DNA from: Brevundimonas sp. M20
GTDB lineage: Bacteria; Pseudomonadota; Alphaproteobacteria; Caulobacterales; Caulobacteraceae
Direction: 5' to 3'
Assembly: GCF_006547065.1 (NCBI RefSeq)
Contig: NZ_CP041243.1
Coordinates: 2,557,001-2,621,000, forward strand
Length of the DNA stretch: 64,000 nt
Both the position numbers and the translations under genes were made by a program. The notes under the pieces are model-generated. The model had not been told where the DNA came from, ran no database searches, and worked only from the letters and a program-made list of their open reading frames with translations. Shown here in pieces: positions 30,968 to 63,140 of the stretch (position 1 is its first letter; every line of letters starts with the position of its first letter).

Positions 30968-30981
30968 GAGGCGCGACACAC

Positions 30982-38611: not shown

Positions 38612-38612
38612 A

Positions 38613-39783: not shown

Positions 39784-40023
39784 CTAGGACATCGCGCCGG
39801 CAATCTGTTCGAGCTTCCGCGCGAAAGGTGCGAGAAGCTGTAACAGTACGTAGGTTTGCGCCCGATCAGGCGAAGCGCCGAGGGCGTGACCAGCTTCATT
39901 GCGCGAGCTTCGGATGACGGACTGAATAAAGCCGAGCTTCACATCAAGATCCTCGGATGCAGCTCCCAGATCCTTTCGATGAGGTGCTAGCAAAGCTTGA
40001 AACTTACGTTGGCTCGCTTCCAT
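39784..40023 (-). CDS. Small HEPN-like protein overlapping DUF5677 gene
   Basis: A 79-aa protein whose ATG lies inside the last codons of the DUF5677 gene (20-nt overlap). The sequence IQSVIRSSRNEAGHALGASP has the HEPN ribonuclease motif R-x4-H (RNEAGH), followed by a helix YVLLQLLAPFARKLEQIAGA. The phrase SRNEAGH plus a final helix is also found at the C-terminus of longer unnamed proteins, so this could be a short HEPN toxin subunit or a separated C-terminal piece. Tight overlap with the DUF5677 gene suggests one operon. Confidence 0.6.
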   Translation of the reverse strand: MEASQRKFQALLAPHRKDLGAASEDLDVKLGFIQSVIRSSRNEAGHALGASPDRAQTYVLLQLLAPFARKLEQIAGAMS

Positions 40024-41335: not shown

Positions 41336-41476
41336 GAGCCTACCCTAGCCCTTAGCAGGGCGTCCGAAAGAAGAACTCGCAGCTTATCCTCAGGACGCTC
41401 AGCCCGCGCAGATGGCGGTTGCGAGCTTCACCATAAGTTGTATGCCGGATTGGGATCGATCTTTCGATGGGAAGTG

Positions 41477-43803: not shown

Positions 43804-44169
43804 TCAGCCTTCCTCCCTACGCCCGATCACGAACGTCTTCGGTCTATCCATTTCCAGCCGCCACCGTTTGGTGGCGGCCTGAGAGTGGAGACGCTCCAGC
43901 ACCACGGCATGCCAGATCCTATCGCACCCTGTCGGCGGGTCTGATCCCCGTCGCATATTGCAGGCGAAGTGCTTCAGCAGGCCGTTTATCAGCCCGTGCC
44001 CACCGCCACGGTACTTGGGCACGATGTGGTCGTAGGTGGGATAATCGGGTCGATCCCTCGGCAGACCTCGCTTCAGTCCCATGGGCTTACCGCACCCCGC
44101 ACAACGACCGCCCTGAGCCCAGTGAAGGATTTGACGCTGTCGTACCCGGCGTTTGCGTTCGTTATTCAT
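43804..44169 (-). CDS. HNH endonuclease coupled to the Tn7-like operon
   Basis: A 121-aa protein (ATG at 44169, overlapping the tniQ stop by 4 nt). It has an HNH/treble-clef nuclease core: CAGCG (C23, C26), the catalytic YDHIVPKYRGGG (D47, H48), N62 and the LKHFACNMRRG end (H67, C70). The N-terminus is basic (NNERKRRVRQRQ). It is the fifth translationally linked gene of the tnsA-tnsB-tnsC-tniQ operon. It might cut target or donor DNA or be cargo; the coupling makes a transposition-linked role worth considering. Confidence 0.82.
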   Translation of the reverse strand: MNNERKRRVRQRQILHWAQGGRCAGCGKPMGLKRGLPRDRPDYPTYDHIVPKYRGGGHGLINGLLKHFACNMRRGSDPPTGCDRIWHAVVLERLHSQAATKRWRLEMDRPKTFVIGRREEG

Positions 44170-46049
44170 GCCGGCGCCATCCAAGGCTCGATGAGAGCTC
44201 GTTCGTAGAAGCCTTGCCCCAAGCTCCCTCCGACACTGAAGGCCTGTAGTTCCGGCCAGAGCTTAGCGGGCGGCTTTCCGATACGAGCGGCGATCTCTCG
44301 CGTCGTGATCATCCTTCGCCCCACAGCCTCGACCTCATGCCTGGCGTATTGTGCGACCTCGCCCTTGGCGCTCAGCGACTGGAGATATTTCCGCTGTCGA
44401 AGCCAGCACACGTCTTGGGCCGTGCAGTTCAGGTACTCCTCGACTTCGGACGAGGCCATGTCGAGCCGCTCCCACTGCCCCAGATCGCCAGCCTGAAACT
44501 CGAACGGATGACCGGCATCGACCCCGCCCATGACCAAGTGCCGCGCCGTTACAGGATGAAGGGTCAGATCGGTGATCTTGCTGCCAGGCACACCTCGCAG
44601 TCCGCCCGGCAGTTCGCCATCGAGGGCAGCCCGCAATAGGCGTGCCCAAGGCTTCGGTCGCCCTCCGACCCCGCGCATGACCTCCCAGATCGGCACGCTC
44701 CCTTCACAAGGATCAACTTCGGACGCGACCGCTAGGCCCTCCAAAAGCGCCTCAGCACTTTCCCGTTCGATATGAAGCCCCTGATAAACCAGCTTCGCCG
44801 CCGCACTGGTCGTTTCGGCAAGTAGGCCGAGCCCGAGAAGTTGTTCGACGGCAGATCGGCTCAGGCCCGTGAGGGCCTGAAACTCCCTCAGCGACATTTG
44901 CGCCATCAGCTCGCCTCGGAGCCTATCCACGCTCACCCTGCGGAGCGAACTGTGCAACCGGTACTCGCCGCCTAGCTTGCTATCTTCATGAAGCAGGCCC
45001 GCATCGATGAGTGACCTAACCTTGCGCCGCTCCAGGCGAAGTATAGCCGCCGCCTCCGTCACGCTTACCCATTCGGTTTCCCACACCGGATCGACCTTGC
45101 TCTTCCCAGGCCAACCGTACTGCAGGACGCGGATCAAGTCGGACCTGACTGCGGGGCGCTGTGAAAGCCGAAGCTGCGTTTCCATCCGCGCGCGAAAAGC
45201 CGAAATGACGCCATCGGTCTGCTGATGCAAATCCCAGTGCGACCGAGGATGATCCAGGAGGTAACGACAGGCCCTCGCGACGTCGGGAAGCTCCAGATTT
45301 ACCCGTCCATGTATCGAGAGATCGCGAGCTACGCGAAGCGGACGAGCGATACCCAGCACGAGCTCATAGGCGTCGGTCGGCGTTTCAGCGCCGAACATCG
45401 GCGGCAAAGCCTTCATCGACCGCTCCTGCTCAGCATCATCGCCGAACAGGCCCACTAACCAGCTGAGCGCCGGCCGAAACGCTCTCGGCACTGTGAGCCG
45501 CTTTTGCTCAGACACCGGCGTCCTGCAGTGACCGCAAACGTGCAGGGAGGTCGCGCTCATCCAGGTCAGCAAATTGCAGGTCGGGCGAGGGCAGCGGTCG
45601 ATCAACATCTCCCAGCTGGCCGGGCAGAACCCCAAGTCGCGCACCATCCAGATGGCCTTGTCCGGCGCGCCCGGGACATGGCTTGGCGGTACGCGGCGCC
45701 GACCACTCTCGACCTGATCCGGAGTAAGCCAGACTCCGCCTAGCCGACGGCGACCGCCCCGCTCACTTTCGACGCCCCACAACCCGTTCCAAGCGTCCTC
45801 CGGAACGCCGAAGCTGTCGTATAGGCGCCCGGCCACTCGGCTCAGCTTATCGATACAGTTTCCGGCGAGAGCGACATCAACGCCCGCGACGCTGAGCAAG
45901 GGACGGATGTTGGACAGGAAGTTGGGCTCTACGTTCCGAAGAAGATACCCAGGCAAGGTCTCCCCTGGCGCGGGCATGACGGGGAAGAGAAGCCTCCCCC
46001 CCGTCACCGATCCCGTCGCCGCAGGCAACATGATCGATCCCTCAGCCAT
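44166..46049 (-). CDS. TniQ/TnsD-like target selector
   Basis: A 627-aa protein started at the ATG at 46049, overlapping the tnsC end by 8 nt. The N-terminal TniQ domain (LPGYLLRNVEPNFLSNIRPL) is followed by a zinc-ribbon-like set of cysteines (C142, C153, C158, C172, C175, in RCPRPTC and HVCGHC). The remaining roughly 450 residues contain at least two HTH segments (TEAAAILRLERRKVRSLIDA; LREFQALTGLSRSAVEQLLG) suited to site recognition, as in Tn7 TnsD. It should bind the attachment site and recruit TnsC. Longer than Tn402-type TniQ, nearer to TnsD in size. Confidence 0.88.
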   Translation of the reverse strand: MAEGSIMLPAATGSVTGGRLLFPVMPAPGETLPGYLLRNVEPNFLSNIRPLLSVAGVDVALAGNCIDKLSRVAGRLYDSFGVPEDAWNGLWGVESERGGRRRLGGVWLTPDQVESGRRRVPPSHVPGAPDKAIWMVRDLGFCPASWEMLIDRCPRPTCNLLTWMSATSLHVCGHCRTPVSEQKRLTVPRAFRPALSWLVGLFGDDAEQERSMKALPPMFGAETPTDAYELVLGIARPLRVARDLSIHGRVNLELPDVARACRYLLDHPRSHWDLHQQTDGVISAFRARMETQLRLSQRPAVRSDLIRVLQYGWPGKSKVDPVWETEWVSVTEAAAILRLERRKVRSLIDAGLLHEDSKLGGEYRLHSSLRRVSVDRLRGELMAQMSLREFQALTGLSRSAVEQLLGLGLLAETTSAAAKLVYQGLHIERESAEALLEGLAVASEVDPCEGSVPIWEVMRGVGGRPKPWARLLRAALDGELPGGLRGVPGSKITDLTLHPVTARHLVMGGVDAGHPFEFQAGDLGQWERLDMASSEVEEYLNCTAQDVCWLRQRKYLQSLSAKGEVAQYARHEVEAVGRRMITTREIAARIGKPPAKLWPELQAFSVGGSLGQGFYERALIEPWMAPA

Positions 46050-46968
46050 GTGTCGCCCCAATCAATGGATTGGCTTTGACGAAGGACTGGGGCACTGCCC
46101 AGTGATCGATAGCCCACGAGATGTCCGAACGTTCGAGACACTGCGCATCGCGCCGAAGCGCCGCTTCCAGTGCGACCTGCAGGAGCCGGGAAACCCTGCC
46201 AACAACGCCGTCAGATACTTCGAACAACGCCGGGAGAAGGCCCGCGCTTTCGAAATTCGATAAGTTCGGCAGAATCTCCTGGTCGACGATGACGTGATCC
46301 AGCCGGTCCACGAAACGGGCGAACAAATCACGATCACCAGCTCGCTTGCTATTCAAGGGCGGCAGGTCGCAAGGTGGGAGCAGACGACCGTTAAGCTGAA
46401 GATTGCGCTCAAACAGCACCTTGGCCTTCGGTGTCCCCAAAAATGCAATCGGGACCACTCCACTGTCCAGCAGCACCTTCAGGGCGTCCGTGACGTCGTT
46501 CTTGGGACTGTCACGGTAGTTGAGGTGCTGAACCTCATCGACGATCAGGAGCTCGACACCGAAGCGCTTGAAATACTCCAGCACGCGCAGCTTGAGGGTG
46601 AGTTCATTGCCGTGATGTGAGTAGGGATCGCCTAGCGCATTCAGAATGGACGTCATCAGTTTTTTGGAGGTCGAGTTCCTCTCAAGCTCGATTTTGATGA
46701 CGGGTATGAAGGTCTCGGTTCTAGGGCGCTGACTTTCGACGAACGCGATGTAAGCCAACGCAGCCGTGCTTTTGCCCGAGCCGGTGGGAGCGAGAACACG
46801 GAGCCCCATCTGGGGCTCTCCCCTGCACCGTCGTCCCAAGCGCTGGAGGTAGTCCAAGCGTTCATGGAAGTGCACGTGGGGAGGATAGGGTATGAACGCA
46901 CGCTTGAAGCGGGCCAGCTTCTCGGCGATTGCCTCGTTCAGATCGAGCGGGTTTCGGAAAGTGCTCAT
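46042..46968 (-). CDS. TnsC/TniB-like AAA+ transposition regulator
   Basis: A 308-aa protein starting at the ATG at 46968 (ATGA overlap with the tnsB stop). AAA+ motifs: Walker A in LAPTGSGKSTAALAY (63-68), Walker B in ELLIVDEVQHLNY, and sensor-like GVVPIAFLGTPKAKV. The N-terminal segment PYPPHVHFHERLDYLQRL is characteristic of the TniB family. It links the target-bound TniQ protein to the transposase, using ATP, and confers target immunity in the Tn7/Tn402 families. Confidence 0.93.
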   Translation of the reverse strand: MSTFRNPLDLNEAIAEKLARFKRAFIPYPPHVHFHERLDYLQRLGRRCRGEPQMGLRVLAPTGSGKSTAALAYIAFVESQRPRTETFIPVIKIELERNSTSKKLMTSILNALGDPYSHHGNELTLKLRVLEYFKRFGVELLIVDEVQHLNYRDSPKNDVTDALKVLLDSGVVPIAFLGTPKAKVLFERNLQLNGRLLPPCDLPPLNSKRAGDRDLFARFVDRLDHVIVDQEILPNLSNFESAGLLPALFEVSDGVVGRVSRLLQVALEAALRRDAQCLERSDISWAIDHWAVPQSFVKANPLIGATHG

Positions 46969-49133
46969 TGGAGCCCCTCCCAATCACCCTGCTGGCTGTC
47001 GGCGCGCATCCATTGCACCGCAGGTTCGGACGAGAGCTGAGGGGACGCAGCAGCCTTGGCGGCAGTCTTTCGCCGCCCTCTTGGCGGTCGCGTCGGTTTG
47101 ACGTGATCGTCGGAACGTTCGGGGGCCAGCGGCACAGTAGGGATGATCGGAGCCATCCCATCATGACGCGTTTCGGCGTACTCGATCCTCAGATGCTCCG
47201 ATATCACCTCGTGAACCTTAGGCGAGTTGAGAAGCCGAGCCTCATTTCGCTTGATCCGTTTGTGGGTTGCCGCCGACGTCAGCCCCCTGATCTTCTCGTA
47301 GAGGGCACATCGCAACTCGCGCTCGTGGGCTTTCGTGATGTCCTGTTCTTCCCGCACCCAGCGCCCGACAACGCCGGCCTGCCACTCGCTTACGCCTTCG
47401 ACTTCAGGGGCGGTGCAGGGCAGCGTTTGGAAAACGCCCCTTTTGGGATTCCAGACGTGGATGGACCCGATGTTGGCGGGATTGTACTTCACCTTCACCA
47501 GACAGGTGGCCGATCCCTTTCTGCGGCCGCGTTTCGGCTGACCGGGGGCGAGGTCTTCGAGCAAGGCCTGGGTGATCGCCTCATCGTGGTAGGTGTGGTT
47601 GAAGATCTCGATGCCGGCGCGATCCAGCACCCGCTCAGTTTCCTTTCCGATCATTTTGTCGAGCTGACTGTCATCGCCGATGACCTGAATGCCGCCGGCT
47701 TCACGGACCCCGCGGTTCCAAGCCTTGATCGGAGCTTCACCCAGAGTGCTGTGCAGGCTCTGATGGTAGACCCCGATGGTGAAGTCGAGCAGCTCGGTCA
47801 GTTCGTCCAAGGTCATCACCGCGTCAGCCTGCGGGTTCAGGCCCCAAGCTCTGAGCTTGTCGATCGGGAAACGGCCACCCGGAAGCCGCTTGCAGAGCAG
47901 CTCATTCAGCATCGCGAAAAATCGTTCGACGATAGCCTTATGCTGAGGCGAGGCTATCGGGGCCCATCGGACGCTCGTTCCAACATCGGTCATGCTCGAC
48001 TGGAATCCGCACCCGGCAAGCTCCATCCCGTTATCGACGATGATCTCATCGAACTTGCCGTGGATATCGACCAAGTCCGGCGCATTCTCGTGAAGCTCGG
48101 CCATCCAGAGCTTCGGCCGATTTGCTCGCTTGATGCACTCTGAGACTGAGTAGATCGATGGAGGTTCCCAGCTAAGCACCCAGCCAACGATGCATCTTGA
48201 GTGGACGTCGATCAGCACGGTGAGCCATGCGCACCCGATGTAGCGCAACCCATTGGCATCCATGACCAGATGCACGTCGAGTTCCGTGTGGTCCATGGCT
48301 CCCAGCAAGAGCGGTCGCCTAGCGACCAAGCCTTGGCCAACAGCTTTGAAGCGCTTTCTGGCTTCCGCTACACCCCACTTTGTGGCGACCGTGTCGTAGC
48401 ACTCCAGTGAGTTGACGAGGCGCCGGAATGTCTCGAACACCGGAACCTGAAAGCCCACTCCGCCGCGTGACAGCAGGTACCGGTTCAAGCCATCCAGATA
48501 GACTTTCAGTTCATCGAAGCTCTGCCTCATCGATCGTTTGTGGTCGCTCCAGTAGGCAGTCGCCTCCTCTGCCATCCGCCGACGGACAGAGGGAGCTAGC
48601 CGCTTCGAACGCTGGCAACGCCCGCTCATGGACATCATGGCACGAAGCGGCCTTTCCCCCGTCTGCCCGCGGGCCTTCAGCCAAGAGCGTACCGTTGACG
48701 GGCTAGGAGGCTTCTTCCCTGCGAGGTACCTGGGCTTCGCTTCCCATATGGCGGCGAGCTCACGACGGATCGCTTCATCGCTTTTGGAGAAGCCGTTTTT
48801 TCTATCCAGTGAGTCCAGAACAATCTGCCTGACGAGCGCTTCCGGATCTCGAGCCATGATCGCGTCGTAGTCGTCCTCACGTTCCATCGCCTGCCGTTGC
48901 GCCGATCGGCTGGGCATCGGAGAAAGGCGACGAATCCGTCCAGCGGCGAACTCCTCCCGGAACCAGGTCCAGGTCGGTGTGACGTGTTCACCCGTGTCGA
49001 GCTCGACTTGATAGGGGGCTGAAGTGCGCTCCGACATGAAGGACAGGAAACCGCTTCCCATTTCCCGCTCGAAGATGTGCCGCTCACCGGCGATTTCCCA
49101 AACATCGCCCTTGGTCAGTTGAATGTTGATCAT
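46965..49133 (-). CDS. TnsB-like DDE transposase
   Basis: A 722-aa transposase with an N-terminal DNA-binding region (DEAIRRELAAIWEAKPRYLA, then STVRSWLKARG), an rve/DDE integrase core with D281 in GAMDHTELDVHLV, D367 in IIVDNGMELAG and E403 in HKAIVERFFAML, and a Mu-type C-terminal beta-barrel (GEAPIKAWNRGVREAGG) plus a TnsC-interacting tail. It cuts and joins the 3' ends of the element. It overlaps tnsA by 4 nt (49130-49133) and tnsC by 4 nt. Confidence 0.94.
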   Translation of the reverse strand: MINIQLTKGDVWEIAGERHIFEREMGSGFLSFMSERTSAPYQVELDTGEHVTPTWTWFREEFAAGRIRRLSPMPSRSAQRQAMEREDDYDAIMARDPEALVRQIVLDSLDRKNGFSKSDEAIRRELAAIWEAKPRYLAGKKPPSPSTVRSWLKARGQTGERPLRAMMSMSGRCQRSKRLAPSVRRRMAEEATAYWSDHKRSMRQSFDELKVYLDGLNRYLLSRGGVGFQVPVFETFRRLVNSLECYDTVATKWGVAEARKRFKAVGQGLVARRPLLLGAMDHTELDVHLVMDANGLRYIGCAWLTVLIDVHSRCIVGWVLSWEPPSIYSVSECIKRANRPKLWMAELHENAPDLVDIHGKFDEIIVDNGMELAGCGFQSSMTDVGTSVRWAPIASPQHKAIVERFFAMLNELLCKRLPGGRFPIDKLRAWGLNPQADAVMTLDELTELLDFTIGVYHQSLHSTLGEAPIKAWNRGVREAGGIQVIGDDSQLDKMIGKETERVLDRAGIEIFNHTYHDEAITQALLEDLAPGQPKRGRRKGSATCLVKVKYNPANIGSIHVWNPKRGVFQTLPCTAPEVEGVSEWQAGVVGRWVREEQDITKAHERELRCALYEKIRGLTSAATHKRIKRNEARLLNSPKVHEVISEHLRIEYAETRHDGMAPIIPTVPLAPERSDDHVKPTRPPRGRRKTAAKAAASPQLSSEPAVQWMRADSQQGDWEGLQ

Positions 49134-49954
49134 TGCAGAAGCTCCGCTTGGTCGGCGACCAGCGCGACCTTCGTTTGAGACGAAAGAGGTTTGGAGAGAT
49201 CGAAACGGACGATGCGTTTGACGACCATGGCCTTCAGCTTGGCTGCAGCTAGCGCCCGCCCTTGAGCGCCAGAAGATGGAATTAGGGTGCCCAAGACACC
49301 CGCCAGCTCGCCAAGAGCCAACGCATCGCTGCCCAGCGTTGAGGCGACCCAGTACACGTCGCCCTTGCTAAATTTCGTGAACCGCCAAGACTGGATATCA
49401 ATGATGTCGTCGAAGGCCTGTGACGCTCGTAGCGCCTTCTGAAGCACTACGCGGAAACGCCAGCCGACCCGCTCGCAGATCAGCTTTACGGCCTGCAGTT
49501 TGGCCGCATAGTCTGGATCGCGGAGGCCATGCGCATCATGCTTGACCTCGACAATCTCGATCGAACCGTCGCTCAGCAGGCGCACGCAATCGACAATGTA
49601 GACCCGCTTCTGGCCACCTACGACGAACTCAAAGCGGAATGGTTGCGCGCGGTAATCCACGACATCCGTGTCGACTTCGCTCTGCATAAAGAGGGCGCGC
49701 TCCCCCATGCTCTCGTAGGGCAGACCGCGGCCGGCTTTGCGGCTTGCATACGATCCTGTGGTGACACGCCGCCGACCGGTGATGATGGACCGTATCGGCG
49801 AGCCGTCCTTGGTTGCAACGAGGGTCGCTGTCGCTGACAGGCCCTCCCATGAAAGCGCACAGACACTCTCGTGGGCGTAGCTCTCGATGGCATGGTCGAG
49901 CGCTGTCGAACTCTGCCGCTGATGCGCGACAGAGTGAGGATGGATGGGCTCCAT
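49130..49954 (-). CDS. TnsA-like endonuclease
   Basis: A 274-aa protein with a TnsA-type nuclease domain: E81/E85 in PYESMGERALF, D122 in VYIVDCVRLL and E136-V-K138 in EIVEVKHDAHG, the layout of Tn7 TnsA which cuts the 5' ends so that transposition is cut-and-paste. A C-terminal domain with GELAGVLGTLIPSSGAQGRA and RIVRFDLSKPLSSQT would contact TnsC. It is the first gene of the operon; the element end is expected a short way upstream, within 49955-50738. Confidence 0.9.
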   Translation of the reverse strand: MEPIHPHSVAHQRQSSTALDHAIESYAHESVCALSWEGLSATATLVATKDGSPIRSIITGRRRVTTGSYASRKAGRGLPYESMGERALFMQSEVDTDVVDYRAQPFRFEFVVGGQKRVYIVDCVRLLSDGSIEIVEVKHDAHGLRDPDYAAKLQAVKLICERVGWRFRVVLQKALRASQAFDDIIDIQSWRFTKFSKGDVYWVASTLGSDALALGELAGVLGTLIPSSGAQGRALAAAKLKAMVVKRIVRFDLSKPLSSQTKVALVADQAELLQ

Positions 49955-53065: not shown

Positions 53066-55321
53066 ATGGAACGAAGACGTCCTCGAAAGAAAACGCAGCG
53101 CGCCCCGTCTCGTGACGAGGGGCCCGGCATTGTGCGCCTTTCTTCCGAGGATTTGATCGCGCTTCGGGAGGCTCGGCTCGCGGTGGCACGCGATCAGGTC
53201 GCGACACTGCCCGCCCTGATCGAAGACCTGCGCACCCTGATGCGCGCAGTCTATCCGCCCCATGTGATCGCGGTTGTCGCGGGATGGGGGCTGCGAACTG
53301 GTGTTGGCCCGGGGGGCGTTTCCTCACGCGGCATGATCGAGGGCGTTGAACAGCATCACGTCGAACTTCTTCAGGCGATCTCGCTGACCATTCCCGCCGG
53401 AGAGTGGGGCCGTGAGCCGGCCGAGCCGCATGAAATGCAGAAGGCGATCAATAGTATTATCGCCATCGCCGATGCCGAGCACGGCCGTCGGCTCCTGGCG
53501 GTGGAAGCGCCGCTTGAACCGGCCGAGGCGGCCGTCTTCGGTCTGCAGGAACGCATCCGCACCCATACCCAAGCAGTGCGCAACTGGGGCTATCCCAGTG
53601 AGGTGATCCGGATCACCCGCGCGCTCTACGGACCACTCGACACGGTATTGCGAGAACGTGTGGGATTCACGGCCACCGAGATGATTGCGGTGATTGCGGC
53701 CGTCGAAGACCTCGTGGACCAACAGGTGGGTGACCGGTTCAGGCTGTTGAAGTCGATTTGGCGCGCTCGGTCGCTTCGTCAGTTCGTACGTCTGTTCTTC
53801 CAGCGCTATCCTGGAGTGGAAGGCGATCCCGAGGCATTCCTCAAAGGTCTTGATCCACGCGAGCCAGAGGAGTCGGTGCGCTTCCGGCTGCTCTTTCACG
53901 CCGATCGACGGTTGGTCACCTGCGCCGTCGTGGCGGCTGCTGCTGTGGCCGAGCGTGCGAACGTGGCGCCCGCTGTAGCGTCTGCGGTCATGGATCGCCT
54001 GAGCTACACACACGGTGCCCTGGTGAAACAGAAGATCGACCGCCTGTTCATGACCAATCCGGTGTGGCTCCGTCCGGGCCTCCGAACCGGAGACGCGTAC
54101 TTCTTCGCATTCCCACAGACCGCCTCCAGCTTCATTCATTCGATTCTGCGCGCCGTATTCGCAGAGGCCGGGCTCGCCGAGAAGCTTGCGGATCGTCGGT
54201 CTGCCTATCTCGAAGAAGAACTCGAACGGCTCATGAGGCTGGCGCTTCCCGGCGCCAGTGTGAAGCCGGGTGCGGAGTGGCAGTGGGAAGGGACGCCATA
54301 CGAGACCGATGTCCTGGCGGTTCTGGACAGGACGGTCGTGATCGCCGAGGCCAAATCTCACACCCTGTCGGCCGAGGGGCTTCGAGGAGCGCCAGACCGT
54401 GTCCGCAAACACATCCAGTCCCTGGTAGTCGATCCTGCCGAGCAATCCGAGCGTCTCGAACAACTGATCCGGGCGGCTGGGGCAGGGGACGCAAGGGCGG
54501 ACGCCGTCGTCTCTGGCCTTGGCATAGACGCGACCAACGTCGATACGGTCCTGCGCCTGTCCGTGACCTTGGACGATTTCTCCGCCCTGTCCTCGGCTGA
54601 AGGAGAGCTCAAGACGGCCGGGTGGGTCCGCGAGGATCTCGACCTTCCCGCGACATTGAATGTCGCTGACCTCGCCTGCATCGTCGATCTGCTCGGGCCG
54701 GCGCATGTGCTGCACTATTTCTCGGAACGCCGGCGTATCCAGAAGCGGGTCAGTTTGATCGGCGACGAGTTGGACCTGATCGGCTTCTATCTGCAGACCG
54801 GCTTCATTCTGAACGGGATGCCGGAGGTCGGCAGTATGGCGATCACCGAGATGTCCGCCGAGCTCGACCGCTATTACTCGAGCAAGGATGCGGGCGTGCT
54901 CCTGAGAAAGCCGGCACCACGGCGCGGCCTCGTAGTCGGACCGATACTCGACGGCCTCCTCGAGCGCCAACCGGAAGGCTGGACGACCGCGGCTATCGGA
55001 CTGCTGAACGGAGCCAGCCACGACGAGCAGAAGGCGATCCGGCGGCAGTTGGACGCGTTGCGTAGGACCGTAGCGAAACACTGGCGTGAAGCGGATCACA
55101 CGCGCGCCTTTCTCTGGGCTCCGCCGGATGCTGATGACCCGCCATGGGTCTTCCACGTCTATCCCAGAGCCTTGGCGTCCGGGCGGCGTGAGGCGGCCAA
55201 CGGGCTGGGAGGCGAAGCGCTGACCACCACTGGACGGCGGCGTTGCATTCTGATCGGGCGAATGGTGGAGGAATGGGACAAGCCGTTCGCCTACATCGGC
55301 GTCGCCTACGCTGACGATTGA
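53066..55321 (+). CDS. Predicted PD-(D/E)XK nuclease (paralogue A)
   Basis: A 751-aa protein, GAGGGA upstream of the ATG. The N-terminal roughly 330 residues are helical (TATEMIAVIAAVEDLVDQQV). A restriction-type nuclease core follows: E413-T-D415 in PYETDVLAVLD and E428-A-K430 in VVIAEAKSHTLS, the D...ExK arrangement of PD-(D/E)XK enzymes. The C-terminal region has VSLIGDELDLIGFYLQTGFI, which also appears as EFIGDELDLLALYLKTGFV in the minus-strand protein at 60963-63140, so the two are homologous. No named family is recognised. It is probably a DNA- or RNA-cutting defence effector; that role is inference. Confidence 0.7.
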   Translation: MERRRPRKKTQRAPSRDEGPGIVRLSSEDLIALREARLAVARDQVATLPALIEDLRTLMRAVYPPHVIAVVAGWGLRTGVGPGGVSSRGMIEGVEQHHVELLQAISLTIPAGEWGREPAEPHEMQKAINSIIAIADAEHGRRLLAVEAPLEPAEAAVFGLQERIRTHTQAVRNWGYPSEVIRITRALYGPLDTVLRERVGFTATEMIAVIAAVEDLVDQQVGDRFRLLKSIWRARSLRQFVRLFFQRYPGVEGDPEAFLKGLDPREPEESVRFRLLFHADRRLVTCAVVAAAAVAERANVAPAVASAVMDRLSYTHGALVKQKIDRLFMTNPVWLRPGLRTGDAYFFAFPQTASSFIHSILRAVFAEAGLAEKLADRRSAYLEEELERLMRLALPGASVKPGAEWQWEGTPYETDVLAVLDRTVVIAEAKSHTLSAEGLRGAPDRVRKHIQSLVVDPAEQSERLEQLIRAAGAGDARADAVVSGLGIDATNVDTVLRLSVTLDDFSALSSAEGELKTAGWVREDLDLPATLNVADLACIVDLLGPAHVLHYFSERRRIQKRVSLIGDELDLIGFYLQTGFILNGMPEVGSMAITEMSAELDRYYSSKDAGVLLRKPAPRRGLVVGPILDGLLERQPEGWTTAAIGLLNGASHDEQKAIRRQLDALRRTVAKHWREADHTRAFLWAPPDADDPPWVFHVYPRALASGRREAANGLGGEALTTTGRRRCILIGRMVEEWDKPFAYIGVAYADD

Positions 55322-55562: not shown

Positions 55563-58500
55563 GTGACAGAGATTCTCCTTCGTCGAACGATGTGGTTCCA
55601 GGACGACCGGGAGCGCAAGACCGTCGATCAGACGTTCCTCAACACAGACCCACGCTCTCTGGTGGTCCTGGGCGAGGCCGGCATGGGCAAGTCGACCCTT
55701 CTGGGGCAGCTCAGGGGTCTGGAGGGATACAGCTTCTGCACGGCGCGTCTACTGATCAACGCGCCGGATACGGCGGCCCGTTTCGGCGGCGCCGAGACCC
55801 TGGTCGTCGATGCGCTGGACGAGATTTCAGCGCAACGCGATGGAGACGCGGTCGATCTCGTCGTGCGTAAGCTCGCCGAGCTCGGCTATCCACGGTTCAT
55901 CCTGTCATGTCGCGTCGCCGACTGGCGAAGCGCCACAGGGATGCAGGGCCTGTCGGACCTGTACGGTCAGGCTCCGCTCGAACTCTATCTCGATCCGTTG
56001 GAGCGAGAGGATGCCGTCGAGGTGTTGAGCGAAGCGCTCGGCGAGACCGAGGCTGAGGAGGCCGCATCCTCGCTTGAGGAACAGGGCCTCGCAGGCCTGT
56101 GGAGCAACCCTCAGACGTTGAACCTGATCCGGGAAGTGATTGGCCGAGGCGCCCTTCCTCGATCGCGGGGCGACTTGTTCGAGACCGCCACCAATCTGAT
56201 GCGGAAAGAGCACCGTGACGTGAAGGTGAGCGCCAGGCTGGTGGCGCAGCCCGAAGAAGCGGTCCTCGATGCGGCAGGCGCGGCGTTCGCGTCGTTGATC
56301 CTGACCGGCAAGGACGCCATCGCCGTCAGGGTAAATCCCGGCGACGACGATCTGCCTTTTGCCGAGATCGCCACGCTTCCTCATGCGGGAGCGATTGCCG
56401 AGGTGCTCGATTCCCGCCTGTTCGCGGCGGTCGAAAGCGACCGGTTCAGCTACGCCCATCGGGCGATCGGCGAGTTTCTAGGCGCGCGTTGGCTCGCGCG
56501 GTGCGCGGACACCGCCCGCAAGCGGCGACGCCTTCTCAGCCTGTTCAATGGCCCAAGCCTGGTCCCGGCGAGCCTTCGCGGCCTCCATGCGTGGTTGGCC
56601 TGGCATAGCCCGGAGCTTGCGGACGACGTCATCGCCGCCGACCCTATGGGCGTCATCCAGTATGGCGACGCCGACGAACTGACGGTCTCCCAGGCGTCAG
56701 CCCTGCTTGACGCGCTCGAGGCCTTGGCGGTGCAGAACCCCCGGTTCCGGGACTGGAGCGAGTATCGTCTGGCCGGCCTGGCCCAGCCGGCTCTCCTGAC
56801 GCGTTTGAGCGCCCTGATCGCGTCGAGCGACGTCGAATTCGGCTTGCGGCTTCTGATCCTGCAGGCGGTCAAGGGATCGGCCCTGGTCCCTGCGCTCGCC
56901 AGCGTCCTGGACGGCTTGATCCGCGATCGCACAGCCGCCTTTGCGCTGCGAAGTGCTTCCATCGACCGCTTGTTCGAAATGGATCAAGCGCGAGACTGGC
57001 AGGGGCTTGTCGAAGAGCTGCTTGGGCAAGGCGACGAAGACGCCGTCCGTCTTGGCGTCGAGATCATCGACACGGTCGGCTACGATATCTTCAACGATGA
57101 TCTGATCGGTCGGGTGGTCACGGCTCAGCTCAACCTCACTCACCGCACCATCGGGATCCTCTATCATCTGCAGAGCAGATTACCTCTGGATCGCATCGCG
57201 GCGCTCCTCGATGCGCTCGCATCGATGGTTCTGCAAGACGATGACGAGGATCCCCACGAGCGCCGCTCCCATCTCTCGGACCTGGCGCAGGCCCTTCTCG
57301 CCCGACTTCTTCCGATGGAGGCGGTGACGCCAGACCGTCTTTGGCGCTGGTTGAGCACGCTGGACGAACATCACGGCTACCAACGCGAGGCGCGAGAGGT
57401 GGTCGCCAGCCATCTCCGTTCCAACGATATCTTGCGCCGGAGTGTCCAGCGTCTCGTGCTGCTCGACCACCCCCCTGAGCGCAACCTCTGGCATGCAGGG
57501 TGGCGTCTGGGGGAGCGGTCTCCAGGGCTCCTTCCCGACGAAGGCGACGTCATCGCGCTTCTCGGCTTGCTAGAGACGACTGACGCCCGGTGGCGAGACG
57601 TTCTCACCATCGCCCGACATGATACCGAACAGGGGGTGGCGGCGCGTATGGCGGCCGAGCGCTTCACGGACGGCGACCCCGAAGCCGAAGCCTGGCTCGC
57701 CAAGCTTGGCAAACCTGAAACGCCGGAATGGGAGATCGACCAGAACCGCCGCAAGCGGGCCCGGGAGACGGAGCGGGTGACGCGATGGAAAAAGCATCGC
57801 GCCGAGTTTGAACGACAGGTGGAGGAGTTGCGGTCCGGAGCCTTCAGGCTCGTCGCCAATCCAGCCAGGGCGTACCTCAAGCTGTTCGCCGACATGGGGG
57901 ACAAGGACTCGGATGGCGCCGGGCGTTTGGAGGAATGGCTGGGCGCCGACCTGCGCGACGCCGCGCTGGCCGGTATCGAGGCCTTTCTGACGGCGGAGCC
58001 GGTCAAGCCGAGCGCGACGGAAATCGCCGAGAGCCACGCCGACGACAAGCACTGGGAGGCCGCCTACATCATCGTCGCCGCCCTGGCCGAACGATACCGC
58101 ACCGGACGGGGCTTCGCGGATCTACCGACGGAACGGATCATGGCCGGCTTTGTCGAGATCCGCTCCAATCGGATCGACGATCACGCCGGCATCCCGAACC
58201 TTGGGAGCGCCCTCGCGGAGGAGCTGCGGAAGCGCGGCGTCTGGGAAGAAGCCCTGCGGCTCTACTTCGAGCCGCAGTTCAGACGCGGACGCGCGCATGT
58301 GGATGGGCTTTACGCCCTGATGCGCGAAGCCGTAGACGCCGAGCTCGCGACCACGCTTGCACTCGAATGGGTGAACCGTTTCGAAACGATGGCGGTTGGG
58401 CCGGAGGCGGAGCTTGTCGACCATCTGCTCGTAGTCCCGGACGCGCTCGCGGCGCTCCGCGACCTCGCGCGACAACGCAGAGCTCTGTCGTCTCTGGAGC

Positions 58501-59504
58501 CGGAGCGCCGCCTGATCTGGGACACGGTTGGCCTCCTCGTCGATTTCGATGCGACCCGCGCAGAGATGGAGGCCGCCGGGTCCGTGCCGGACGACCTGCT
58601 CTGGCATGTTCGATCCCGTCTCGGCAGCCGGCGCGCGGAAGGCGGACGGGTGGATGTCGAGCCGGACCAAGCGCTCTGGATGCTGCGTCAGTTCAGGCCC
58701 CGTTTCCCGATGACCTACCGCCCGAGTGGCGTCACGTCGGGGGATGCAAACGCTTGGGACGCCAGCGATTTCGTGTCGGCTCTCATTCGACGCCTCGGAG
58801 ACAATACGTCGGAGGCGGCGGTTCAGGCGCTCAAGGATCTCCGCGCCGACCCGGCGGACCCCTATTCGGAACTCATCCGGACGGCATTGGCAGAACAGAA
58901 ACGCAAGCGGGTCGAGGCCGACTGGCAGGCCCCGGAGTTCAGTACGGTCAGCGCGACTGTTCAGGACGCGGCGCCTACGACGTCTGCTCAGTTGCAGTCG
59001 GTGCTGCTGGAGGAACTTGTCAAGGTCCAAGCCCTGCTGCGAGGCAGCGACCTCGACTGGTACCGCGACTTCGTGACCGATGGAGTTCCCCATGGGGAGG
59101 AACGTTGTCGCGACAGCCTGCTCAAGATGCTTCGTCCCCTGCCTTTCGGCATTGATGCCATTCCCGAGGCGCATCTGGCGGATGACAAGCGGGCGGACGT
59201 CTTCTGTCAGCTCGGCGATCTGGGCGTACCCATCGAGATCAAGGGGCAATGGCACCGCGAACTATGGTCTGCGGCGGACGACCAGCTTGACCGACTTTAT
59301 GTGAACGACTGGCGGGCCGAAGTCGGAATCTACCTCGTGTTCTGGTTCGGAGCCGCCTCGTCCAAAAAGCTGCAGGCGCCGCCCGCCGGCACGCCGACGC
59401 CGACCAGCGCGCCAGAGCTGCAAGCGGCCCTGATGGAGACGAGCGCTCTCGCGCAGGAAGGCCGGATCGCCGTCGTCGTCCTTGATCTGGAACGGCCGTC
59501 CTGA
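55563..59504 (+). CDS. NACHT/STAND ATPase with C-terminal PD-(D/E)XK nuclease domain
   Basis: A 1313-aa protein starting at GTG with GGAGGGGAACC upstream. The ATPase part begins at once: Walker A GEAGMGKST (37-45), Walker B LVVDALDEIS (80-89), FILSCRVADWRSA and the helical NACHT-type extension (GLWSNPQTLNLIREV, FSYAHRAIGEFLGARWL). About 900 residues of helical repeats follow, a likely sensor or oligomerisation region. The last 110 residues carry D1212 in KRADVFCQLGD and E1225-I-K1227 in VPIEIKGQWHRELW, a second nuclease signature. Known Avs proteins carry an N-terminal effector, so this reversed order differs. The next gene overlaps it by one base (TGATG). Confidence 0.82.
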   Translation: MTEILLRRTMWFQDDRERKTVDQTFLNTDPRSLVVLGEAGMGKSTLLGQLRGLEGYSFCTARLLINAPDTAARFGGAETLVVDALDEISAQRDGDAVDLVVRKLAELGYPRFILSCRVADWRSATGMQGLSDLYGQAPLELYLDPLEREDAVEVLSEALGETEAEEAASSLEEQGLAGLWSNPQTLNLIREVIGRGALPRSRGDLFETATNLMRKEHRDVKVSARLVAQPEEAVLDAAGAAFASLILTGKDAIAVRVNPGDDDLPFAEIATLPHAGAIAEVLDSRLFAAVESDRFSYAHRAIGEFLGARWLARCADTARKRRRLLSLFNGPSLVPASLRGLHAWLAWHSPELADDVIAADPMGVIQYGDADELTVSQASALLDALEALAVQNPRFRDWSEYRLAGLAQPALLTRLSALIASSDVEFGLRLLILQAVKGSALVPALASVLDGLIRDRTAAFALRSASIDRLFEMDQARDWQGLVEELLGQGDEDAVRLGVEIIDTVGYDIFNDDLIGRVVTAQLNLTHRTIGILYHLQSRLPLDRIAALLDALASMVLQDDDEDPHERRSHLSDLAQALLARLLPMEAVTPDRLWRWLSTLDEHHGYQREAREVVASHLRSNDILRRSVQRLVLLDHPPERNLWHAGWRLGERSPGLLPDEGDVIALLGLLETTDARWRDVLTIARHDTEQGVAARMAAERFTDGDPEAEAWLAKLGKPETPEWEIDQNRRKRARETERVTRWKKHRAEFERQVEELRSGAFRLVANPARAYLKLFADMGDKDSDGAGRLEEWLGADLRDAALAGIEAFLTAEPVKPSATEIAESHADDKHWEAAYIIVAALAERYRTGRGFADLPTERIMAGFVEIRSNRIDDHAGIPNLGSALAEELRKRGVWEEALRLYFEPQFRRGRAHVDGLYALMREAVDAELATTLALEWVNRFETMAVGPEAELVDHLLVVPDALAALRDLARQRRALSSLEPERRLIWDTVGLLVDFDATRAEMEAAGSVPDDLLWHVRSRLGSRRAEGGRVDVEPDQALWMLRQFRPRFPMTYRPSGVTSGDANAWDASDFVSALIRRLGDNTSEAAVQALKDLRADPADPYSELIRTALAEQKRKRVEADWQAPEFSTVSATVQDAAPTTSAQLQSVLLEELVKVQALLRGSDLDWYRDFVTDGVPHGEERCRDSLLKMLRPLPFGIDAIPEAHLADDKRADVFCQLGDLGVPIEIKGQWHRELWSAADDQLDRLYVNDWRAEVGIYLVFWFGAASSKKLQAPPAGTPTPTSAPELQAALMETSALAQEGRIAVVVLDLERPS

Positions 59505-60700
59505 TGGACCGCCGCCAGGCGCGGGCGTGGCTAGAGAGCACCGTCGAACAAAGTCGGATCACCATCCTCCACGGCCTGCCGCGCGTCGGTCGAAGCGCGC
59601 TCCTGACGGCGTGGTGCGATGACCAAGTCGGCGTGCAGAGGCTCCGGCCTGCGGAAGTCGCGGCCTGCTCCGCGCCTCTCCAAGTGATCGATCATCTTGG
59701 GGGGACTGAGGTGGACGACTTCATCGGTGCCTTTCGGGAAATCGAGGCGATCCGCCGGTCCAGATATGTGATTGCGCCGCTCGATCTTGCCGCGACCCGT
59801 CAGCTTCAGGAGGCACTGCCTGGAAGCGTGCAGATCGTCGTTCTCGATCCGCTACAGCGTCACGAAGTTCTCGCGGATGAGTTCGAGATCACAGAGCCGT
59901 TCACAGTCGAAGTCGAGCCGGTAGCTTCACCGTTAGCGAGCAACCGCCCGATGTTCGACCTCGATCAACACTGGCTGCGAGGCGGACTGCCCGAAAGCCT
60001 CGAAGCGGAGAGCGACCTCGCCAGCTTGAAGTGGCGACAGCAGATGATCGACGCCTTGCTGCTGCGAGACTACACCCGTTGGGGCCTCTCGCCTGGCCTC
60101 AAGATCAGCGACGTCCTGACCTGGGTGGCAGGCCAGAACGGCGGTGAATTCGACCTGGACAATCCGTCGATAGGAAAGCGAGCGGATGTCCGTTCCGCGC
60201 TCCATGTCCTCGACCGCCTCGGCGTCGTCCGCCAACTCCGAAACTATCCGCTTCGTAGCGAGGCGAGTCTGACTAGAAAGCCGAAGATCCACATTCGGGA
60301 CAGCGGCCTGTTGCATGCCATGCTCGGCATCGAGACGATCGAGCAACTACGTGCACATTCACTCATGGGTGAAAGTTGGGAAGGCTATGCGATCGAGACG
60401 CTGATCCATGCAGCGAACCGTCCCGACACCGCCCAGTTCTATCGCGAGCCCGGACCCGACGGGGCGGATGAGATCGACCTGGTGCTCGACTTCCGTCCAT
60501 GGAACGGGCGTCTCGTAGCAGTCGAATGCAAGGCCGGTCCCGAGACGCCGCCGCGCCCCGGCTTTTATCGTGCGATGAACGCCATCGGTGCGACCGACGG
60601 TTTCGTCGTGCACTCCGGTTCCGGGTCCCAAGCCGAGCTCAAAACCCCGCGACACGACCTCGCGATGGCGAGAGCCCGGATTATCGAACTGGCGTCCTGA
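59504..60700 (+). CDS. DUF4143-type protein with degenerate P-loop
   Basis: A 398-aa protein related to the AAA_14/DUF4143 family (ATP-binding proteins often encoded as stand-alone genes). The Walker A is written GLPRVGRSAL (residues 24-33) with Arg30 in place of the catalytic Lys, and the usual Walker B is not evident, so ATP hydrolysis is doubtful. The C-terminal DUF4143 region is well kept: RSALHVLDRLGVVRQLRNYP, KPKIHIRDSGLLHAML, SLMGESWEGYAIETLI, and a PD-(D/E)XK-like core with D325 in EIDLVLDFRP and E341-C-K343 in VAVECKAG. It overlaps the NACHT gene by one base, so they are made together and probably act as one system. Confidence 0.8.
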   Translation: MDRRQARAWLESTVEQSRITILHGLPRVGRSALLTAWCDDQVGVQRLRPAEVAACSAPLQVIDHLGGTEVDDFIGAFREIEAIRRSRYVIAPLDLAATRQLQEALPGSVQIVVLDPLQRHEVLADEFEITEPFTVEVEPVASPLASNRPMFDLDQHWLRGGLPESLEAESDLASLKWRQQMIDALLLRDYTRWGLSPGLKISDVLTWVAGQNGGEFDLDNPSIGKRADVRSALHVLDRLGVVRQLRNYPLRSEASLTRKPKIHIRDSGLLHAMLGIETIEQLRAHSLMGESWEGYAIETLIHAANRPDTAQFYREPGPDGADEIDLVLDFRPWNGRLVAVECKAGPETPPRPGFYRAMNAIGATDGFVVHSGSGSQAELKTPRHDLAMARARIIELAS

Positions 60701-60962: not shown

Positions 60963-63140
60963 TTAATCCGGGGCTGGCGGTTTTTTGAAAACGGCCAAGC
61001 CGGAGGTGATAGCGACCCCGACCTCCGGTGTCGCCTTGGCATCCTGTGTCCAAGATACGCCCCGATAATATGGGAGAACTGGATCCTTGAGGTCGCCGCT
61101 GCCGTCCAGATGAAAGACGAACAGGCGCTCATTGGGGTGCTTCTGGTCCTGTTCGGCGAAGATTGATCGCGCGGCCCGGACGCGCTCGACATCCGGCATC
61201 CGGCCTGTCACTACACAGGTGAAATGGGTAGGCCGCAACTGATCGTGGACCTGCATCAAGACGCCGTTGTAGGCGCCTTTTGACGGGCTACGACGAAGCT
61301 TACGTCGAAGAGCGACGATGTCTTTCCAGAATCGTTCCTGCGAGGCCAACGGCACGTTTAACAGATCGTGGATCATATCGCTCCAGCCGTCGGGACGTTT
61401 GAGTTCCCGCTGGACGATGATACGGTCCCACCACGCGCTCGTCAGTTTGGGCAAACGACATTTCGGGTCGTAATGACCACTATGTCGGACGTGGTATCGG
61501 AGCAGGTCCGACAGGCCATAAACGACGAGAGGTCCCATCTTGGCCTCGCGGGCCCATAGTCGGACGAAGCCGGTCTTCAGATAGAGGGCGAGGAGATCGA
61601 GTTCGTCGCCGATGAACTCGCAGTCCCTCTCCAGGTCGGACCGCCGCAGGAGATAATGCAGGCATCGTCCCTCGCTTCCGATCAGTTCCTGCATCAGAAG
61701 AAGGTCTCCGATCGTGAAGATCGGCATCGCCGTACCACCGAGACGCACGATCCGGTCACGTAGCGCGTTATCGACCCCATAGCTCGCCATCGTCACCCGC
61801 TCCAACGATACGCCAAAGCGGGCGATATGGCGGATGTCGGCTTTGATCAGAGTACGGAAGCCTTGATCGGTTCTTAGAGCAAGCGCGGCATCGGCGGGAT
61901 GGCGCAGCGCCGCCTCCAAGCGAGACGTCTGCAGCGCCGCTTCGGCGACGACATCGTCGAACAGCCTGAACCAGTCGGCGCTGCCGCGACGCGCGACGTT
62001 CGAAAGGACATGTCCCTTGGCTTCGAAGATCAGGGCGTGTCCGTCGATGAGGAGCATGACATCCGTCTCGTGTTCCTCGCCGCTCACCGGGTCGGTCCAG
62101 AACACCGACGTCAGGACCTCACCATGGGGGAACACCGCACGAAGAACACCAGCCGCCATGGTTTCAAGCGCCGCCCCCCGAGCCTTTCCGATCACCTCGC
62201 CCGGCGTCTTCGAAATCCCTTCGGCAAGAGTGGAAAGCACGTCGGCGTGTGCAGAGAAGAGGGTGCCAGGAGAAAAGCAGAACCAGCGGTCATCGATTTT
62301 CACCAAAGGCCGCCGCCACATCGGATTGTCGAGCGGGAGATAATCTGGATTCATCGGCGCCAGCGCGCCAGGCTCAAGCGACAACTTGTCGAGGATCACT
62401 GCCACGGCTGAGGTGGACAGGTTCAGAAAGGCTCCAGCTACACGGGCGAGCGGCACTTCGAAAAGCGAACACCAGGTTGGGTCGAACGGCCTGACACCGT
62501 TGAGCCAACTCGTGATCTCCTCGACGACTGGACTCTCGTCGACAAGACGGGCGACCGCCATGGCGGCTACCATCGCCACCTCCGAAGCGTCCTGAAGCGA
62601 CATGCCGAGCACGTGTTTTCCGAACGGCGCGAGCTCATCCCCGATCATCTGAAAAATTTTTCGAGCATGATGCGGATAGAAGGTATGCCGCACTCTCAAT
62701 GTCTGATGGCGGCGGCGGGCTAGGAGCTCTGCAGCCTTATCGGCACCCGGCTTCGACGTCTGATCAATGAAGAGGCGTAGATAGGTGTCCAATGCATCAG
62801 TCAATCGATGGACATCATCTGGCGCTGGAGTCGCCCCATTTGCAGATGTCCTGAGCAGAAGGGTCTGAGCGAACTCAAGGACCGCAATATCCACACGTGA
62901 CCGCGGAGCGTCGACGGCGCTCACCTTTTCCATCACAGCCAGCATGGTCATGATCGCCACGCCGTCGAATTCTTGGAAACCCTTGCAAAGAACGTCAGTG
63001 GCTTCGTGATAGAGTCGGTCCTGATCGGCCTGCGAAAGATCCGGTATGTCCATCCAGCCATATGTTTCGGCCAAAGGCAGACCGGCACCAAATACGAGAT
63101 CGTCGAGCGTCTGAGGCTTGGTCCGGGACTTAGGTTTCAT
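60963..63140 (-). CDS. Predicted PD-(D/E)XK nuclease (paralogue B)
   Basis: A 725-aa protein. The N-terminal half is helical (EVAMVAAMAVARLVDESPVV). The nuclease core has E358-T-D360 in EEHETDVMLLIDG and E373-A-K375 in ALIFEAKGHVLS, followed by PIFTIGDLLLMQELIGSEGR and CEFIGDELDLLALYLKTGFV. These match VADLACIVDLLGPAHVLHYF and LIGDELDLIGFYLQTGFI in the 53066 protein, so this is a distant paralogue on the opposite strand. The C-terminus differs. No named family is recognised; the role in defence is inferred from context. Confidence 0.7.
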   Translation of the reverse strand: MKPKSRTKPQTLDDLVFGAGLPLAETYGWMDIPDLSQADQDRLYHEATDVLCKGFQEFDGVAIMTMLAVMEKVSAVDAPRSRVDIAVLEFAQTLLLRTSANGATPAPDDVHRLTDALDTYLRLFIDQTSKPGADKAAELLARRRHQTLRVRHTFYPHHARKIFQMIGDELAPFGKHVLGMSLQDASEVAMVAAMAVARLVDESPVVEEITSWLNGVRPFDPTWCSLFEVPLARVAGAFLNLSTSAVAVILDKLSLEPGALAPMNPDYLPLDNPMWRRPLVKIDDRWFCFSPGTLFSAHADVLSTLAEGISKTPGEVIGKARGAALETMAAGVLRAVFPHGEVLTSVFWTDPVSGEEHETDVMLLIDGHALIFEAKGHVLSNVARRGSADWFRLFDDVVAEAALQTSRLEAALRHPADAALALRTDQGFRTLIKADIRHIARFGVSLERVTMASYGVDNALRDRIVRLGGTAMPIFTIGDLLLMQELIGSEGRCLHYLLRRSDLERDCEFIGDELDLLALYLKTGFVRLWAREAKMGPLVVYGLSDLLRYHVRHSGHYDPKCRLPKLTSAWWDRIIVQRELKRPDGWSDMIHDLLNVPLASQERFWKDIVALRRKLRRSPSKGAYNGVLMQVHDQLRPTHFTCVVTGRMPDVERVRAARSIFAEQDQKHPNERLFVFHLDGSGDLKDPVLPYYRGVSWTQDAKATPEVGVAITSGLAVFKKPPAPD

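Follow-up and report, generated by a model that had tools for sequence, protein, structure and literature searches.

A DUF4143 protein with lost ATPase motifs recurs as a partner of the EruA-family ATPase

Introduction

Why would an ATPase that carries its own nuclease domain be followed directly by a second, ATPase-like protein whose P-loop is broken? The question is posed by two genes, here called A and B, in a 64,000-nucleotide stretch of Brevundimonas sp. M20 DNA (the window, which spans bases 2557001-2621000 of a genome of 3.3 Mb in a single contig). A (1313 aa, GTG start) and B (398 aa, ATG start) are read from the same strand and meet at the junction CCTGATGG, where the last base of A's TGA stop is the A of B's ATG, giving a one-base overlap. 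Both are real genes, since both have many relatives: at E 0.001, with 8000 candidates scored per search, 923 proteins were recovered for A and 1650 for B. A preliminary description, made from the sequence alone, took A for a STAND ATPase with a C-terminal PD-(D/E)XK signature, B for a P-loop-dead protein with a nuclease-like core, and the two for a sensor-effector pair in which B "has become" a regulated nuclease. The overlap and every residue it named (K43 and E1225 in A, E341 and the motif GLPRVGRS in B) are indeed present. We report here that A belongs to EruA, a recently named antiphage family, and that the new element is its partner, whose dead ATPase motifs are fixed and which is limited, as far as seen, to one lineage.

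EruA combines a STAND ATPase with a predicted C-terminal nuclease

A matches the NCBIfam model NF058535 (antiphage_EruA) over residues 8-1309 with 1278.4 bits, above the curated cut-off of 1000, and is called EruA below; going by the family name, this copy would act against phage. The label NACHT is likewise taken from the name of the family model; A scores under the Pfam cut-offs for NACHT (12.1 bits, cut-off 26.7) and nSTAND_NTPase5 (18.7 bits, cut-off 34). The closest homologue, protein P0121, also has 1313 aa and is 92% identical over 100% of the length, and the closest homologues bearing an organism name are Brevundimonas proteins with 65-69% identity. Among other loci, NF058535 recognises the pair members L032, L056 and L148 (1219, 1252 and 1321 bits) as well as two copies without a DUF4143 neighbour, L033 from Pseudomonas (1425 bits) and the distant plasmid copy L153 (1243 bits).

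The motifs of EruA are almost invariant. When A is aligned with 120 homologues, the Walker A lysine K43 and the nuclease residues D1212, E1225 and K1227 each occur in 120/121 rows; D83, D86 and E87 of the VVDALDE motif downstream of Walker A each occur in all 121. Within the set of EruA loci described below, the Walker A lysine is K in 47/47 copies reaching that site and ExK is present in 44/45; all eight checked NACHT and nuclease residues are retained, with or without B, in 41 of the 43 copies that reach all eight, the exceptions being L114 and L151. In AlphaFold2 models of the two proteins (mean predicted local distance difference test scores 91.7 and 88.3), the C-terminus of A follows the alpha-beta-beta-beta-alpha-beta order of the PD-(D/E)XK core, and its fold matches BamHI, OkrAI, BglII, Can2 and a McrBC chain, with D...ExK set in the core fold. 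Thus, the nuclease fold on which the preliminary description depended appears in EruA, and family match, conserved motifs and model together identify A as a STAND/NACHT ATPase with a C-terminal nuclease fold, for which cleavage is predicted.

The exception L151 is a Sphingobium plasmid gene (L151:4905-9551) that covers EruA model positions 1-1099 of 1318 and continues into a TM0106-family RecB-like nuclease (TIGR03491, 201 bits, cut-off 97) in place of EruA's own, which is missing. It is perhaps a nuclease exchange or an accidental fusion, and we do not use it as evidence.

The ATPase motifs of B are dead, and the dead state is held

B is a member of the DUF4143 family (Pfam PF13635, 70.1 bits, gathering cut-off 28.1) and matches the PADLOC model PDC-S01 by profile score alone (103.6 bits, E 2.5e-30). 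Among NCBIfam models there is no match to B or to the DUF4143 proteins next to EruA at L032 and L056, and AAA_14 (PF13173) gives no match to B at E 1; R30 and H64 stand where the lysine and glutamate of the ATPase motifs would be. When the profiles of EruA and B were compared, just the two P-loop regions aligned (59% probability).

We compared window B and its nearest relatives P0001-P0091 (the B clade, which includes the near-identical P0001) with a canonical DUF4143 set, P0092-P0120; the split is by rank, not by tree, and P0093, which has an arginine, is counted on the canonical side. The Walker A lysine is replaced by arginine in all 82 B-clade rows with the site (10 rows lack the stretch) and is kept in 27/28 canonical rows. 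The residue after the Walker B aspartate is never glutamate in the 86 B-clade rows (H 76, Q 5, R 2, N 2, D 1, E 0), whereas 27/29 canonical rows have it, and the sensor-1 serine has become proline in 84/87 B-clade rows, with serine in 27/29 canonical rows. Four Rhodobacterales members have in addition lost the first P-loop glycine (ALPRAGRT). In a tree of 65 DUF4143 proteins the arginine-bearing (R-type) proteins form one clade (support 100, starred) of 29 R rows and one K row, P0092, which keeps its lysine despite its place inside the R clade.

Because all three positions are changed this uniformly, we conclude from the alignments that the dead ATPase state of B is held rather than drifting, and B is predicted to be unable to hydrolyse ATP. 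In one closely related pair of loci (L036, L148), the ratio of nonsynonymous to synonymous substitutions (dN/dS) is 0.12 for EruA. For B it is 0.41 ahead of residue 150, measured from GTG starts, and 0.14 from there to the end. By this measure the N-terminal domain of B is looser yet still constrained, and its arginine is invariant.

Sequence searches of solved structures gave just weak P-loop and other chance-level matches with EruA and no relative of the DUF4143 part of B; viral contigs contained no confirmed relatives of either protein, and phages none of B. Among the open-access papers listed, we found neither papers on antiphage EruA or HyoA nor DUF4143 in connection with NACHT and phage, and DUF4143 by itself was found as a domain entry in the gene table of one paper; the name EruA also turns up for an unrelated E. 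coli regulator.

The D...ExK motif of B is a general DUF4143 trait

The AlphaFold2 model of B places helices (H) and strands (E) at H288-304, E310-317, E320-330, E336-343, H352-361 and E365-370. This is again the order alpha-beta-beta-beta-alpha-beta, with D325 in strand 2 and E341 and K343 in strand 3. A fold search with the whole protein as query covered mainly residues 1-307; the order and residues of the C-terminal part fit a PD-(D/E)XK core. D325 and both E341 and K343 of the E-C-K motif are each kept in all 90 B-clade rows with a letter there, and, together with the arginine in 82/82, this bears out the picture of a P-loop-dead protein with a nuclease-like core. Motifs and models thus agree that the pair holds two nuclease-like domains and one ATPase that is intact by motif. 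The canonical set, however, carries D...ExK as well (D 29, E 28 and K 29 of 29). Since B inherited the motif from its family, its presence does not indicate that B "has become" a nuclease, and this part of the preliminary description falls away.

The pair recurs, and B is an optional accessory of EruA

To describe how often the genes occur together we used a chosen set of 49 EruA-like copies from genome contigs and plasmids: the window, 27/29 loci of one search, 10 genomes from a search of the order, 4/36 genomes with a match and 7/28 plasmid records, two short-match loci (L059 and L060) being excluded. Not all copies reach the EruA cut-off, and near copies occur (L034/L149/L154 and L045/L046). 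Five copies run into a contig end downstream. In the 44 readable loci a DUF4143 gene lies directly downstream of EruA in 9 and is absent there in 35; all nine are among the 26 alphaproteobacterial loci, versus none in 18 gamma- or betaproteobacterial ones. Seven of the nine neighbours are R-type; taking the earliest start codon, five of these share 1 or 4 bases with EruA, and the other two start 2 or 5 bases downstream of it. The two-gene unit proposed earlier therefore recurs. B is an optional accessory of EruA, lineage-specific as far as seen; because most EruA-like loci read here lack it, the sensor-effector logic assigned to the pair would already be complete in A.

All seven R-type genes with a readable neighbourhood stand right behind EruA and none is alone, but as five of them came through EruA-led searches, solitary copies of B could have escaped this count. 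Searches led by B yielded just the window and one Paracoccus plasmid as R-type, both beside EruA. In the order search (398 genomes), an EruA relative was present in 11 genomes and just the window's place scored like an R-type gene (614 bits; next 186). From this and a search of 385 genomes of the class, 59 DUF4143 places were fetched (30 of 45 in one search and 29 new from a longer list), and no unfetched place in the order search exceeded 164 bits. Two of the 59 have EruA beside them (the window and G123) and 57 have none in the stretch read; the P-loop residue is K in 54, R in one (the window) and was not found in four. Among the best 20 of 199 plasmid records, the best B match (Paracoccus) adjoins EruA, and three of the matches ranked after it are K-type and stand apart from EruA.

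Protein records point the same way. For 36/91 B-clade proteins the longest contig has exactly the length of the longest contig of one of the 120 listed EruA proteins, compared with 0/29 canonical proteins; contigs of at least 5.2 kb are available for 60/91 and 9/29, respectively. Equal length presumably means the same contig, and the pairwise distances of such A/B pairs correlate (r 0.88, 37 pairs). In an EruA tree restricted to 34 of 45 rows (11 long-branched or very distant rows removed by name), the seven R-type rows and the contig-end rows L035 and L037 fall on one side of a branch with support 78, not starred.

Two Rhodobacterales plasmids, L148 and L153, carry different EruA genes at what seems to be the same spot beside conjugation genes; the L148 gene has an R-type DUF4143 partner, and the distant L153 gene has none.

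Other DUF4143 proteins behind EruA

The two remaining neighbours differ from B. At L116 (G123), a DUF4143 gene overlaps the end of EruA in an open frame and encodes an intact P-loop (GVRQTGKT), VIDEIQ and ExK. In the 65-protein tree this protein groups, on a long branch, with the canonical DUF4143 proteins; the link between EruA and DUF4143 therefore probably arose more than once, the L116 partner having been recruited separately. At L056 (Sphingomonas sp. URHD0057), a 282-aa DUF4143 protein without a P-loop domain overlaps EruA by 4 bases. It belongs to a family of 10 members of 258-287 aa (L056/P0241 and P0242-P0250), all of which have ExS instead of ExK and keep the aspartate and glutamate. 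EruA partners therefore do not all retain a complete ExK site. EruA itself retains all eight checked residues at the loci with these other partners.

Three Burkholderiales loci (L045, L046 and L055) share a conserved gene of 440 aa that lies about 155 nt behind EruA. We rejected it as a further partner: by the tree, L045 and L046 are almost the same locus and count about once, and L055 is too short for the tree.

How B may act on EruA

The reading we prefer, and hold tentatively, is that B is a lineage-specific STAND-like accessory with ATPase motifs fixed in a non-hydrolysing state, most likely in a complex with EruA whose nuclease it gates or aims. EruA would comprise an N-terminal NACHT/STAND switch, a long middle part as the probable sensor and the C-terminal nuclease. 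The one-base overlap suggests that B is co-translated with EruA, and their linkage that the two form a complex. Judging by its motifs, B might either hold the nuclease back until a trigger arrives or use its nuclease-fold domain to present DNA or phage protein. Upon infection EruA would be triggered, its NACHT part would assemble, and the nuclease would cut DNA of the phage, the host or both, as the family name and the likeness to bNACHT25 (see below) suggest.

Alternatively, B could be a second nuclease that is switched on by the ATPase of EruA, on which it would depend with its own ATPase dead. This is possible, if somewhat improbable. The D325, E341 and K343 residues, constant in 90/90 rows and set in strands 2 and 3 of the core, speak for it, as does the C-terminal part of B, which is constrained about as strongly as EruA in the one pair measured; PMC12799240 describes gated nucleases that accompany other bacterial immune systems, AVAST included. 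Conversely, the motif is common to canonical DUF4143 proteins, the P-loop-less family lacks its lysine, and EruA already has a nuclease and is found without B in other lineages. To our knowledge, nuclease activity has not been demonstrated for any DUF4143 protein. We place gating or aiming above a second effector because the motifs of EruA are constant while those of its partners vary, and keep the nuclease account alive because ExK is perfect within B's own clade. An integrated sensor or decoy is less probable still: B would use its nuclease-fold domain to bind, not cut, DNA or a phage protein and would relay this signal to EruA. Its conserved fold with retained site residues, the loss of the lysine in the P-loop-less family and a dead STAND-like N-domain resembling plant sensor partners with a dispensable P-loop (PMC9528088) would fit, but retention of ExK in every row exceeds the need of a mere decoy, and the trigger is a postulate.

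That B is an independent defence gene, a PDC-S01 candidate lying beside EruA as defence-island cargo, seems very unlikely. The PDC-S01 match and the other defence-like and mobile genes of the window are in its favour; overlaps or gaps of at most 5 bases at 7/7 R-type loci, the lack of any R-type B away from EruA in the seven neighbourhoods read (five of them from EruA-led searches), the excess of paired contigs in the B clade and a second, different DUF4143 gene in the same place at L116 all argue against it.

Several points nevertheless count against gating or aiming by B. The N-terminal part of B evolves faster, so the dead P-loop could be a remnant, though its arginine is unvarying, and an active nuclease would explain the complete retention of D...ExK in the B clade no less well than a scaffold would. 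The ExS family is tied to EruA by a single locus, L056, its sole known neighbourhood, and an ExS site need not be dead, as some PD-(D/E)XK enzymes use other residues there. The long branch makes the placement of the L116 protein uncertain. Mirrored A/B distances would also arise from shared inheritance alone, and the EruA tree, built from 45/49 copies after removal of four shorter than 1100 aa, requires five changes rather than one to account for the DUF4143 neighbours. Finally, not all paired plant receptors act by repression: Pik-1 and Pik-2 cooperate and both P-loops are needed (PMC9528088).

The recurring pair offers a handle on the role of DUF4143 proteins, and partners with intact, dead and absent P-loops form a natural series for probing the ATPase and the nuclease-like site.

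Comparison with known systems

The EruA model NF058535 describes a single protein, to which the window pair adds a DUF4143 second gene. HyoA (NF058534), the sister NACHT family, matches A partially with 122.8 bits, far below its cut-off of 1200, and in seven distant matches to the EruA model (L008-L014; about 1450 aa, HyoA-sized by length alone) no DUF4143 was seen in the short stretches read. With the AAA_14-DUF4143 ATPases and PDC-S01, B shares the DUF4143 domain and the profile match; canonical members keep the lysine, the catalytic glutamate and the sensor-1 serine, whereas B has lost all three and adjoins EruA. PMC12988326 places PDC-S01 fourth in frequency among prokaryotic defences and states that most PDCs still await validation.

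According to PMC12169576, the clade 6 proteins bNACHT25 and bNACHT32 join a NACHT module to a PD-(D/E)XK DNase effector required for defence, and in this combination they resemble EruA. Their nuclease is N-terminal and their sensor C-terminal; in EruA the NACHT part is N-terminal and the nuclease C-terminal, and a variant with a second gene exists. EruA, with Walker A at residues 37-44 and the nuclease at about 1143-1313, thus departs from the tripartite order of bNACHT and Avs proteins (N-terminal effector, central NTPase, C-terminal sensor) given in the same paper.

Paired nucleotide-binding leucine-rich repeat receptors (NLRs) of plants are likewise two STAND proteins acting as a pair. In RGA5/RGA4 and RRS1/RPS4 the P-loop of the helper is needed and that of the sensor is not (PMC9528088). 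EruA and B share no homology with them beyond the STAND fold, and repression of EruA by B is putative; among the open-access matches listed, nothing fitting a bacterial paired NLR or pseudo-ATPase was found; one of them (PMC13236601) concerns a CARD-NLR-like system of Caulobacter. Speculatively, and we consider it rather doubtful, the pair could be a bacterial counterpart of paired NLRs: EruA would be the executor, and B a STAND-like repressor and sensor with a permanently dead nucleotide site and a nuclease-fold bait or DNA gauge. Such partners would have been recruited, probably repeatedly, from the very common and mostly unvalidated defence candidates of PDC-S01, and one lineage would have kept just the nuclease-fold part, minus the catalytic lysine. 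If B does gate EruA, paired NLR logic would exist in bacteria in two separate proteins.

Features and genomic surroundings

Coordinates of the two genes, their motifs and the P-loop-less partner gene
Feature	Position	Strand	Basis
eruA-like gene (A)	55563..59504	+	NCBIfam NF058535 antiphage_EruA, 1278 bits, cut-off 1000
EruA Walker A GEAGMGKS, K43 (residues 37-44)	55671..55694	+	alignment with homologues
EruA Walker B region DALDE (D83, D86, E87)	55809..55823	+	121/121 rows each
EruA C-terminal PD-(D/E)XK nuclease domain (predicted), about residues 1143-1313	58989..59501	+	
EruA nuclease motif D1212 ... E1225-x-K1227	59196..59243	+	120/121 rows each
DUF4143 partner gene (B)	59504..60700	+	Pfam PF13635 and PADLOC PDC-S01 matches
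B N-terminal STAND-like P-loop domain, ATPase-dead by motif, about residues 1-150	59504..59953	+	
B dead Walker A GLPRVGRS (residues 24-31; R30 replaces lysine)	59573..59596	+	clade alignment
B Walker B D63-H64, catalytic Glu replaced	59690..59695	+	clade alignment
B DUF4143 Pfam domain	60101..60538	+	Pfam
B PD-(D/E)XK-like core, about residues 288-398	60365..60697	+	model and conserved D325, E341, K343
P-loop-less DUF4143 gene	L056:12960-13808		P0241

Mobile and defence-like genes abound around the EruA pair. Immediately around it are two large proteins in opposite orientation, 53066-55321 (+) and 60963-63140 (-), which share 28% identity over 436 columns, carry EAKxHxLS motifs after ETD and belong to no Pfam family. 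As system members we rejected these ExK-like proteins; neither was found at the other EruA loci read. The family of 60963-63140 is rare, with members in 4/200 genomes of the order, including the window's own, and in three plasmid records.

A Tn7-like module on the minus strand comprises a TnsA-like endonuclease (49130-49954), a TnsB/Mu transposase (46965-49133), a TnsC/TniB ATPase (46042-46983) and a helix-turn-helix protein (44166-46061). A repeat search showed no clear ends of this module, and its tns genes read away from the EruA pair, which may or may not be its cargo. Further off are a KAP-family ATPase (41285-43666, +) with a PADLOC PifA match of 388.6 bits, adjoining a DUF5677 protein (40004-41335, -); a serine recombinase followed by two adjacent RepB-like proteins, all chromosomal (36177-39503, +); and a 1498-aa RHS-repeat protein (30757-35253, +).

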